Source: Gammaproteobacteria bacterium (GTDB taxonomy: Bacteria > Pseudomonadota > Gammaproteobacteria > Pseudomonadales > Azotimanducaceae). Taken from it: DNA of 64,000 nt. The DNA lies in the NCBI GenBank assembly GCA_009846005.1, contig VXYL01000016.1, positions 72,256 to 136,255 on the forward strand, in the 5' to 3' direction. The position numbers were made by a program, and so were the translations under genes. Numbering within the stretch: position 1 is the first letter of the stretch; every line of letters starts with the position of its first letter. The notes beneath the pieces are model-generated. The model ran no database searches and was not told the origin of the DNA. It saw only the letters and a program-made list of their open reading frames with translations. Shown here one piece after another: positions 8,587 to 45,262 of this stretch.

Positions 8587-11500
8587 ATGCGGTCGACAGC
8601 TCATGTGCGGAACGCGGCGTCTTCGCTGTCTTCGACATTGCTGCGTGGGCCGTCGATGTCGGTTCGTGGCGCGCGGGGGTTTGCGGTCGGCACTCTCGTG
8701 TTGCAGGCGGGCCTCGTGGTGGCGGAAACCAACCACACCGTTCCCCTGTTCCCGTCCGCATCGGACGCCACGCGCCAAGGCTTCGTCCGTGTGATCAACC
8801 ACTCGGTCCTCGACGGCGAAGTTCGCATTCTGGCCGTTGACGACTCAGGCGGACGCGTGGACCCCATCACCTTGGGGGTCGACGGTCGCGAGACCGTTCA
8901 TTTCAACTCGGACGACCTGGAACTGGGCAACGATGGCAAGGGCCTGTCCGGGGGTGTCGGGTCAGGGGAGGGCGATTGGCGGCTGGAGCTGACCAGCGGT
9001 CTGGACATCGAGGTGATGGCCTACATCCGTACGACCGACGGGTTCCTGACGGCAATGCACGACACCGTGCCCGGCACGGACAACCGCCACGAGGTCGCGA
9101 TTTTCAATCCTGCCAGCAACCGGGACCAGATCAGCCGCCTGCGCATCGTCAATCCGGGCGAGTCCGATGCCGGCGTCACGATCACGGGTGTCGACAGCAC
9201 GGGAGCGTCGCCGGGCGATGCCGTTGCGGCGAGCGTTGCCGCCGGCGCCTCGCTTACCTTGACGGCGGAAGAGCTCGAGTCCGACGGGTTGGGCGACGGC
9301 GCCGGAAAATGGCGGCTCAACGTCGAGTCCGACCAGCCGGTAGTCGTCGTCAACCTGCTCGAGAGCCCCACCGGGCACCTGACCAACCTCTCCACGACCA
9401 TCGGCAGCCGACGGGTACCGTTGTTCCCGAGCGCCTCGGGCACGCGCGGGCAGGGCTTCGTGCGAGTCCTCAACCCGTCGGACGAGGCCGGGGTGGCATC
9501 CGTGGCGGCGTTCGACGACACGGGGCGGGCCTACGATCCCGTCATGCTGGACCTCGGTGCGGGCGAGACCGCGTACTTCAACTCCGACGACCTGGAGCAG
9601 GGAAACACTGCGAAAGGGCTGTCCGGCCGTACCGGCACCGGAGAGGGCGACTGGCGTTTGGAGTTCTCGAGCGACCTCGACATCGAGGTTTCGGCCTATG
9701 TCCGCACCGAGGATGGCTTTCTAACGGCCATCCACGATTCCGCGCCCGGCACGGCCTATCGGTCGCGTGTCCCCACGTTCAATCCCGGCAGCAACGTGGA
9801 TCAGGTCAGCCGGCTACGGTTGGTGAACGTCGGTACGTCCCCGGCGGATGTCAGGATCCAAGGCATCGACGGCCTTGGCGAATGGTCATCGACCGTGCAA
9901 GTATCGTTGCCTGCGGGTGCTGCGCGTGATCTCAGCGCAAGGGAACTGGAGTCCGGCGGCGAGGGATTCGCCGGCATGCTCGGCAACGGTGCGGGCAAGT
10001 GGCAACTGATCATTCGGTCCGATCAACCGCTCGTCGCGATGAGTTTGTTGGAGAGTCCCACCGGGCATCTGACGAACTTGTCCGCGGTCCCGGTAGACCG
10101 CTCGGCGAAGGTCTTCGAGCACCGGCAGTCCTTCAGGCGGTTGGCGGAGGATTCTTTTTATTCGAACGAGGAGTGGTACTTCGATCAGCAGAGGGGTTGG
10201 TACGCCGCTAACTATGAGCTGGCGAGGTACGCCGGCTTCCAGGATCTGCTGAAGAAGCACGACTACCACCTGCCGACCGGCCGGGGTCTCACGGTTCTTC
10301 AGGCCGAAAGGAACCACACGCCCGACGACCTCGGCGATGTCCGCCATCTATTCGTCTACAAGGACTCGGACCGCCATAGCCGGACCGTCGCCGAGATACT
10401 CACAGAGTACAGCGACTACCCGCTTCTTCTGACCAGGCACACCACATTCTCCTTTGAGCTGGACTCCTTCCACACCACGGACACGGCGGATTTGCGGGCA
10501 TTCGCGGGGGACGAAGACCGGACCCGTCGCTACCCGTCGTTAACACACGACGGCGTGCCGATCGCACCCGCGAAGCTGTTGAATGTCAGCAATACCAACG
10601 GCGGGTCGTCTGTCAACATCCTGAGACATTTCGACAAGTTCGTGGAAGAGAACGACTTGGTGGCCTGCACCGCGCAAAGTTCGTTGATCGAGGGGAACTG
10701 GACAACGAGCGGCATGGCGTACAACAGCATCGTGGTAGATCAGAAATACGGGAACCCCAACGCCTTCGACGGTGCCAAGGTGAACGACCACGGCTCGCCG
10801 CGGTACAAGCCCGACATCATGGCGCGCGCCAAGGCGGCGGCGACCAGCTATTCCTCTCCCCTGGCGTGCTCCGCCGCAGCCATGCTGCTGGAACGAGCGC
10901 AGCTAGACCCGCTACTGTCCAACGCCTACCACGGCATCGCCATCAAGGCCATTCTCATGGCGGGCGCTACGCGCTTCAACTACCGGGCCAGCGCCGAGTG
11001 GGCGGATGTCAGCCCGATCGACCCTTTGTTCTGGCACGGCGAATGGGAGCGAACGTCTGATGAGCTTCCGCTCAGTCCGAGGTACGGCGCTGGCGCACTC
11101 AACGTGCTTGCCGCATACGACATTCTCGATGCGGGAGAATTCGACGGCGAAGCCGACGTCGCAGTCGGGCCACGCGGCTGGGACTACGGCCGCGATCCCG
11201 TCGAGGGGGATGTCGTTGCCTATAGCTTCGACGTCGCCCGCGAGTCGGTGTTCTCCGCCGTTCTCGTCTGGCACCGATACATCGACGACGACTGGACCAG
11301 CTACCTTCCAGACTACGCGCTCGAGGTCATCGACGGCGGAGGCGGCCGCGTGGCGTTTAGCAACAGCGCCACGTCCAACGTCGAACTGGTGGAGGCCACG
11401 TTGCAGCCCGGCAGCTACGTCATGGAGGTGCGGGCCGCTTCCGACGGGGGCAGTCCCCATGAGCTGACGTACGGTCTCGCGTGGACTACCAAGGCCATCT

Positions 11501-42758: not shown

Positions 42759-44597
<1,839 letters not shown>

Positions 44598-44688: not shown

Positions 44689-44732
44689 GAGATTTCGCGG
44701 AGCGAAATCTCGGGCTACCGCGAAGCGGTAGC
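44689..44732 (+). terminator. Two hairpins between rpoD and the tRNA gene
   Basis: A 10-bp perfect stem (GAGATTTCGC/GCGAAATCTC, 3-base loop, 44689-44711) is followed by an 8-bp stem (GCTACCGC/GCGGTAGC, loop GAA, 44714-44732). They lie where the rpoD and tRNA transcripts converge. On the plus strand the second is followed by GTTTGG, a poor T tract. A bidirectional terminator is likely but not certain. Confidence 0.5.
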
Positions 44733-44735
44733 GTT

Positions 44736-45110
44736 TGGTGGGCCCACCAGGACTCGAACCTGGGACCAATGGATTCACGGTCTCCCGGCGTTTCCGCCGG
44801 GCGTGGACTATCTCACCACCCTCGCCGCCGGATTCCGGCGGCGGTCGGGTGCGGGACGCTCAAGCCTGTCATCAAGGACGCTCGGCGCGTTGCCAATAGC
44901 ACCGCGCCAGTCCCCAGGTAGTCTCTGCACCTTCCGGCGGTGTACCGCCGGCTTGGCTCAGGATTGCCGTGGTCGCCACGACCGACGGTTTCCCTGAATT
45001 CATCCCGTTCATCTTCCGGCTCTCGCCGCAAGTGCACCAACCGAGGCTTCGCGCGATCACGAACCTCGTCTCGATGAGTCCACTGCTCTAACCAACTGAG
45101 CTATAGGCCC
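44736..45110 (-). tRNA. ileX: tRNA-Ile(CAU) interrupted by a group I intron
   Basis: Exon 1 (45110-45074, 37 nt) begins GGGCCTATAGCTCAGTTGG and ends with anticodon CAT; exon 2 (44775-44736, 40 nt) begins AATCCATTGGTCCC and ends with encoded CCA. Joined they give a 77-nt cloverleaf: acceptor GGGCCTA/TGGGCCC, anticodon stem TGGA/TCCA flanking loop CTCATAA, and T arm CCAGG-TTCGAGT-CCTGG. A CAU anticodon with this body, just after rpoD, is the isoleucine tRNA whose C34 is changed to lysidine by TilS, as in Pseudomonas. The 298-nt insertion lies between U36 and A37. A possible -10 (TACACT) lies 13 bp upstream. The gene symbol is by analogy. Confidence 0.9.
44776..45073 (-). ncRNA. Self-splicing group I intron (IC3-like) in tRNA-Ile
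   Basis: The 298-nt insertion has the group I marks: exon 1 ends in U, the intron ends in G (44776), and an internal guide GUGA (about 45061) can pair with exon UCAU through the usual final U-G. P7 is read as GACTA (44923-44919) with TAGTC (44810-44806). Core blocks CTGAGCCAAGC and GTGCAGAGACTA resemble the Azoarcus tRNA-Ile(CAU) intron. Hairpins: P6-like CCGGCGG/CCGCCGG, P8-like GGCGCG/CGCGCC, a 9-bp CGCCGCCGG/CCGGCGGCG, and P9-like CCCGGCG-GAAA-CGCCGGG with a GNRA loop. No endonuclease ORF is present. Exact P1 and P3 pairings are not resolved by eye. Confidence 0.87.
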
Positions 45111-45262
45111 GTCGGCGGGAGTGTAGGGGCCGCGGTGGAAGGCGTCCATAGTGCGTGGCGCATCTTGGGCAACCTGATTGCCGATTGCAGGCGAAGTCCG
45201 AGCCAAAACGACCGGCTGGTACACTGGCTGGATGCCAACGCAGCTACCCCACGGAGCCTGTC

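Follow-up and report, generated by a model that had tools for sequence, protein, structure and literature searches.

Bacterial tRNA genes interrupted by group I introns are best known for introns of subgroup IC3, in which P7.1 and P7.2 are absent and P7 leads directly to P3; a P7.1/P7.2 insertion between these two helices is a mark of subgroup IA. A described case close to the one reported here, the intron of the Azoarcus pre-tRNA-Ile(CAU), shares its host tRNA with our intron and is, we presume, a small, ORF-less element that follows a CAU exon end, uses a GUG guide and occupies the same place. It has been assigned to IC3 (PMC4498298; also a title cited in PMC3984707). Published work places group I introns in the tRNA-Ile2 of Azoarcus, Acidovorax and Burkholderia, the latter two known here by mention alone, in work on tRNAscan-SE 2.0 that names the same host tRNA (PMC8450103). 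Putative group I introns have likewise been published for tRNA genes of Gammaproteobacteria, in tRNAs other than Ile2 and with their types left unassigned.

Group I introns act through guanosine attack at the 5′ splice site and exon ligation at the 3′ splice site; the available text of the 2014 review from which we take this names P7.1 and P7.2 among the class features and places all phage introns then observed in protein-coding genes (PMC3984707). A 2025 database paper suggests, from subtype counts, phage–host exchange of IA2 introns (PMC11835236). In the literature searched, which lay mostly outside subscription journals and was in part accessible, we found neither an IA-type intron described for tRNA-Ile2 nor a group I intron described for any phage tRNA.

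Here, we describe a locus within a 64,000-nucleotide stretch of DNA (the window) from a draft bacterial genome (106 contigs, 97% complete). It is very probably a working tRNA-Ile2(CAU) gene with an ORF-less, phage-type (subgroup IA) intron that belongs to one homologous family, was probably acquired laterally and has since been inherited mostly with the chromosome. Such an arrangement would place a phage-type ribozyme in the apparently sole AUA-decoding tRNA across a wide set of uncultivated bacteria.

Gene layout and ribozyme core

The tRNA-Ile2(CAU) gene, CCA included, occupies window positions 45110–44736 on the minus strand, exactly the coordinates given in a preliminary description of this DNA. 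A group I intron of 298 nt interrupts the gene directly after U36. Its parts and neighbours are as follows.

45120..45148, minus strand: candidate promoter serving the tRNA gene itself, 9 nt upstream, TGGACG-N17-TACACT
45074..45110, minus strand: 5′ exon of tRNA-Ile2(CAU), 37 nt, ending ...GGACTCAT at 45074, with anticodon CAU (U36)
44776..45073, minus strand: group I intron, 298 nt, first base C, terminal G at 44776
44736..44775, minus strand: 3′ exon of tRNA-Ile2(CAU), 40 nt, AATCC...CACCA, starting with A37, CCA encoded
42759..44597, plus strand: rpoD, convergent neighbour of the tRNA-Ile2 gene

Once joined in silico, the two exons fold as a 77-nt cloverleaf of canonical form whose anticodon is CAU, which bears out the earlier reading of a tRNA-Ile(CAU) with encoded CCA, broken after U36. 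Also as first described, the intron lacks an ORF of its own: the window's ORF list holds none of ≥80 aa inside 45073–44776 on the intron strand, and by that measure the intron encodes no homing endonuclease. A single antisense ORF of 107 aa overlaps it. TACACT stands just upstream of the tRNA in 13 of the 15 same-genus loci inspected; a strict consensus promoter scan found no promoter. tRNA-Ile2 genes sit near rpoD in many Gammaproteobacteria. Two hairpins lie directly downstream of the tRNA (window about 44690–44735), and the GAGATTTCGC...GCGAAATCTC hairpin, which resembles a repeated element, occurs again after the tRNA in loci L012 and L013 and partly in L015 and L016. Plain ARAGORN misses the gene and its introns-allowed mode misnames it tRNA-Gln(CTG), so the window case shows how annotation loses such intron-split tRNA genes.

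Searched against the window in E-value mode, the Rfam group I model RF00028 gave a clear best match at 44784–45041 that spans the full model (1–253 of 253) at 49.3 bits and E 1.7e-11. An Rfam scan of the whole window at the gathering threshold reported nothing, because that score falls 0.7 bits short of the cut-off of 50; the model thus agrees with the proposed group I intron over its full length, with a score just under the cut-off. The locus is the sole RF00028 match in the draft genome at E ≤ 1, and the native fold of the gene is far more stable than its shuffles (z −7.56, 0/100).

Fifty tRNA-Ile2 introns were collected from relatives of the host, named loci around rpoD and a sample of the class, and 47 were aligned (alignment A1), leaving out L020, L022 and L029 (>325 nt). 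A group I model of 78 pairs was drawn on the window sequence and tested on these 47 homologues. Its principal elements in the window are listed here.

45035..45038, minus strand: internal guide GGUG, pairing by eye with exon CAU (U36·G wobble at the splice site) and intron C1
45002..45007, minus strand: P3 5′ strand CGGGAU, partner 44852–44857, 99.6% paired, compensatory change at 1 of 6 pairs
44993..44998, minus strand: P4 5′ strand UUCAGG, partner 44957–44962, 99.6% paired, zero compensatory changes
44919..44923, minus strand: P7 5′ strand GACUA, partner UAGUC 44806–44810, guanosine-binding helix, invariant in 47/47
44865..44918, minus strand: P7.1/P7.2 insertion separating P7 from P3, with an invariant CCUG/CAGG helix and a covarying GGGAC/GUCCU helix, both 100% paired
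44784..44801, minus strand: P9 hairpin with GAAA loop, 96% paired, compensatory changes at 6 of 7 pairs

Over the 47 introns, 90.8% of cells were paired under the model (79.4% when shuffled), changes on both sides of a pair numbered 470 cells (158.8 when shuffled), and the covariation score was 0.340, against 0.133 for shuffles and 0.064–0.096 with partners slid by 1 to 3 columns. P2, P6a, P7.2, P8 and P9 covary, as does P3 at one pair; P4, P7 and P7.1 are near-invariant and therefore lend no covariation support by themselves. Pairing was complete (100%) in P6, P6a, P7 and P8; it was poorest when P5 is taken together with its extension (59.7%) and in the distal parts added to P7.2 (69%) and P8 (50–82%). 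The P3–P8 and P4–P6 domains with the P3/P7 pseudoknot are accordingly present across the alignment, P5 and its extension being the weak part. With its RF00028 match and covariation above the controls, the intron is confirmed as group I.

At the splice sites, all 47 aligned introns keep the GGUGC guide and the terminal G unchanged, the guide forming the U·G pair at the 5′ site, and this upholds the CAU exon end and GUG guide reported at the outset. Exon U36 before the break and the CAU exon end recur at 50 of 50 loci of the family, whose exon stems pair. A P10 helix is possible by eye in the window copy, between exon AAUC and the GGUU before the guide. Two other explanations of the interruption were rejected: an archaeal-type (bulge–helix–bulge) intron, because the RF00028 core fits, and an assembly artefact, because site and structure are common to 22 other genomes of the family.

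Subgroup and phage relatives

The P7.1/P7.2 motif (CCUG...CAGG enclosing a covarying helix) was found in all 50 tRNA-Ile2 introns and in none of the 24 other tRNA introns parsed from the class. Introns of tRNA-Thr and tRNA-Lys have other sequence of similar length between P7 and P3, and in the tRNA-Leu introns L229 and L235 P7 runs straight to P3 (by eye). The window intron thus differs from the Azoarcus type, which as an IC3 intron lacks P7.1/P7.2; the two are set apart by the published class of the Azoarcus intron rather than by aligning its sequence. These features place the tRNA-Ile2 family, on sequence, in a phage-type subgroup IA, and kinship with Azoarcus is not supported.

Judged from core sequence, the closest non-tRNA relatives found for the window intron are phage introns. 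A search of annotated phages (62 of 50,697 records at E ≤ 10, 7 of the best 20 below 1e-3) matched the terminase gene of Vibrio phage 11895-B1 (E 9e-8) and Klebsiella jumbo phages (E 5e-5 to 6e-4), and exact core patterns were found in 12 IMG/VR contigs. The L277 intron is a close relative, with the 5′ exon end TCAT, the guide GGUG and P7.1 in common; the frame across it resembles SU10-type capsid proteins (by eye), and an ORF about 1 kb downstream matches SU10_MCP and the PHROG major head family. L281, a phage contig by gene content, carries a tRNA-Ile2 with a 242-nt intron at the same site. On that contig the intron-bearing tRNA-Ile2(CAU) (8695–9013) adjoins tRNA-Arg(CCT), and the ribonucleotide reductase gene looks split, possibly by an intein (by eye).

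Klebsiella Alcyoneusvirus records hold the intron in an unannotated tRNA-Ile2 inside a tRNA array. In L288 (2423–2733) a jumbo-phage tRNA-Ile2(CAU) is split by a 231-nt group I intron; L291 and the hit records H23 and H24 carry the same stretch, L293 has part of it, and a 330-base query from the Klebsiella phage was covered fully in four records and by 78% in a fifth. The stems of the joined product pair by eye, and ARAGORN makes no call on it. The annotation shown for L288 and L291 lists no such tRNA-Ile2, and the Muenster paper gives six tRNAs by ARAGORN, with the word ‘intron’ absent from its main text. HNH-annotated genes lie near the tRNA-Ile2 in L291, and the one scanned has a NUMOD3 motif. 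Used as a query, the Klebsiella phage intron matched 87 records at E ≤ 1e-5, of which 64 were Staphylococcus phages, as well as the S-CBWM1 psbA intron. These phage IA-type introns (Vibrio terminase, L277 capsid, S-CBWM1 psbA, Staphylococcus) have core sequence in common with the window intron, but they interrupt protein genes, several with nucleases in or beside them, whereas the window intron is ORF-less and splits a tRNA.

A core tree of 65 rows, in which most forks are weakly supported, nests the introns of L277 and L281 within the bacterial set and puts the Klebsiella intron beside a Vibrio phage terminase intron; if right, this placement means that the site was entered more than once. 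We put forward, tentatively and as less likely than not, that the tRNA-Ile2(CAU) anticodon loop is a homing site common to phage tRNA genes and bacterial chromosomes, entered more than once by phage group IA introns (the main bacterial family, and a separate branch in Klebsiella jumbo phages), with phage intron-bearing tRNA-Ile2 genes as the vehicle. Were this so, an essential host tRNA would now depend on a phage-derived ribozyme. Transfer may have run from the phage pool to bacteria, and phage tRNA genes with introns at the same place offer a concrete test case for phage–host exchange.

Three IMG/VR contigs (L275, L276 and L278) begin inside an intron-bearing tRNA-Ile2, and in L275 a tyrosine integrase ORF follows, as if a provirus used the tRNA 3′ end as its attachment site. 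A phage tRNA-Leu(UAA) with an intron of the same core type lies on a 146-kb IMG/VR contig (L279, 9523–9861, minus strand). In Vibrio phage R16F (L289) the terminase large subunit is annotated as five CDS pieces, and intron cores lie within, or at the edge of, two of the gaps.

Distribution and descent

The nearest named rpoD relatives of the host are an uncultured Pseudomonadales genome and the marine HTCC2089 and K189A clade, as expected if the DNA is gammaproteobacterial, the host group named in the preliminary description. A search of 57 relatives with the gene recovered the same-site intron in 22, all in the host's family: 14 of 15 genomes of the same genus (in the remaining one, G011, the search found nothing) and 8 of 21 from other genera, compared with 0 of 21 genomes from other families of the order. 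Among the other 13 from those genera, nine have an intronless tRNA-Ile2 (by pattern, told from Met by eye) and four have neither. Named loci around rpoD carry the intron in 4 of 80 cases (HTCC2089, two K189A clade genomes and isolate NAT125).

Under strict filters, RF00028 matched 56 of 369 genomes in a sample of the class. We read 64 loci, covering nearly all matches listed; 23 are tRNA-Ile2 genes with an intron of the window's family, from 23 genomes besides the window's and 17 families, and at 17 no intron-bearing tRNA was parsed. At 18 of these 23 genes rpoD is adjacent; of the five without it, four came with only about 250 bases of flanking sequence. ARAGORN's names for class loci (Gln, Met, Asp, His, Ser) were rejected after splice-site re-parsing. 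The same set includes group I introns after position 36 in tRNA-Thr(UGU) and tRNA-Lys(CUU) (L211, L213, L216, L219 and L222, the 3′ splice site of the L211 parse being wrong), and ARAGORN misnames the tRNA-Thr genes in it. The exact core pattern, which misses diverged copies, was detected in the order sample in 8 of the 18 genomes that belong to the host's family, against 0 of 372 from other families; in the phylum sample it occurred in the window genome only (1 of 398). E. coli genomes gave zero intron matches; among the matches listed for plasmids (7 records), the 5′ exon alone matched.

Within the genus, exons are identical or nearly so and the intron periphery diverges. Intron and rpoD distances agree in the host's family (Mantel r 0.73, 0/5000 permutations, n = 16), and weakly in other class members (r 0.21, 520/5000, n = 18). 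The rpoD tree, built from 85 of 115 rows after dropping 28 rpoD rows (mostly Pseudomonas, no intron seen) and the duplicates L184 and L199, requires at least eight changes in intron presence, three of them forced by well-supported branches; some rows scored as ‘none’ have no tRNA-Ile2 at all in the fetched stretch, and the count is therefore rough. L027 has a very long, unreliable rpoD branch. Taken on the sequences, the pattern reads as a small number of transfers or losses between orders, with descent mostly vertical once inside the host's family. The intron would probably have reached that family laterally, out of a pool that phages share, and would since then have passed mostly with the chromosome.

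Splicing and the reading of AUA

The proposed course of expression follows from the model. The pre-tRNA would be transcribed, probably on its own, and its intron would fold and bind guanosine at P7; cleavage would follow U36, with exon CAU paired to guide GUG, after which U36 would be joined to A37 and the intron released at its terminal G. We expect the window transcript to splice in the cell in this way. An anticodon loop would exist only in the spliced product, so TilS would act, forming lysidine, after splicing and ahead of AUA decoding, and failure to splice would be lethal or close to it.

The draft genome gave 39 tRNA hits, two with a regular CAU loop. ARAGORN, which names any CAU tRNA Met, calls both Met, and by eye they are fMet and elongator Met; the canonical CAU cloverleaf of the split gene stands beside these separate initiator and elongator genes, as tRNA-Ile2(CAU) should. 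Compared with E. coli, three of the best five of 6058 matching records lay on tRNA-Ile and the top two on tRNA-Lys. The 375-nt gene search, ARAGORN (run over the draft's 39 tRNA hits) and patterns found no intact tRNA-Ile(CAU) in the draft genome or in two single-contig relatives (G012, G013), in answer to the concern in the preliminary description that a second, uninterrupted copy might exist. The draft tRNA listing also lacks tRNA-Asp and tRNA-Ile(GAU), and absence there is therefore weak by itself; the first CAU pattern was too strict, also missing elongator Met, and its negative counts for little. G012 and G013, one contig each, have two CAU-pattern tRNAs apiece, fMet- and elongator-like. 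No UAU anticodon appears among the draft's 39 hits, and a UAU pattern for tRNA-Ile(UAU) occurred in 0 of 5 genomes tried. A second, intronless partial match in another genome (G019, C114) was discarded, being just a tRNA 3′ half on which ARAGORN makes no call. The draft carries a tilS gene (146.7 bits, cut-off 93.6).

Since no intact tRNA-Ile(CAU) or tRNA-Ile(UAU) was found, the intron-bearing tRNA-Ile2 is probably the host's only AUA decoder on this gene inventory, and reading of AUA probably needs splicing. A caveat to the sole-decoder reading is a tRNA-like gene in the same genome (L062, G000:C81:86724-86796) whose anticodon loop holds CAU but is 6 nt long, and whose acceptor stem is short.

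Several other readings were considered. The preliminary description took the intron for a gammaproteobacterial relative of the one in Azoarcus tRNA-Ile(CAU), perhaps passed laterally from one of the two classes, beta- and gammaproteobacteria, to the other; the shared tRNA and the position and CAU/GUG guide that we take the two to share would fit. tRNA-Ile2 introns mentioned for Acidovorax and Burkholderia also fit (PMC8450103). Yet the IA-type P7.1/P7.2 of 50 out of 50 introns and the phage affinity of the closest non-tRNA relatives found speak against it, as do two IC3-like tRNA-Ile2 introns of the class sample (L266, L272) that lie, by eye, at a different place, between U33 and C34. We regard kinship with the Azoarcus intron as very unlikely; the lateral movement itself remains likely, with the data pointing to phages as its partner. 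Active mobility today, by homing into intronless tRNA-Ile2 alleles with a nuclease from phage or chromosome, is compatible with lateral acquisition of a phage-type intron, and seems to us unlikely. The patchy spread (by exact pattern, absent from all 372 genomes in the order's other families, yet present in 23 other genomes in 17 class families), the same site in phage tRNA-Ile2 and the HNH-annotated genes near the Klebsiella phage gene, one with a NUMOD3 motif, suggest it. The window intron has no ORF, however, and within the family it agrees with rpoD; it encodes no homing nuclease, so that present mobility would need help from elsewhere.

The remaining readings concern function. A decayed intron that has stopped splicing, the tRNA gene being a pseudogene and AUA falling to another tRNA, could draw on L062 and on the RF00028 score just under the cut-off, and is barely credible set against exons that stay near-identical across the genus while the intron periphery diverges, intact core invariants and compensatory changes; two low-scoring 73-nt tRNA hits, in G012 and G013, are tRNA-Glu and not counterparts of L062. 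As for the statement that splicing controls AUA decoding, the mature tRNA does require splicing, but regulation finds no sequence or expression support. A regulatory intron, spliced at a rate that responds to guanosine or Mg2+ so as to tune AUA decoding, would suit an apparently sole decoder of a rare codon (3 of 2068 codons in four window ORFs are AUA), whose tRNA could be limiting; any tRNA intron would look alike, and we consider it highly improbable. The working tRNA-Ile2(CAU) gene with an IA-type intron is thus the reading we prefer.

Two further genes of the draft genome (L061, G000:C81:42322-42418; L064, G000:C97:99908-100001) have a long variable arm and, by eye, the anticodon CGC; ARAGORN names L064 Ala(CGC) and leaves L061 uncalled, and the tRNA body is unusual for an alanine anticodon.
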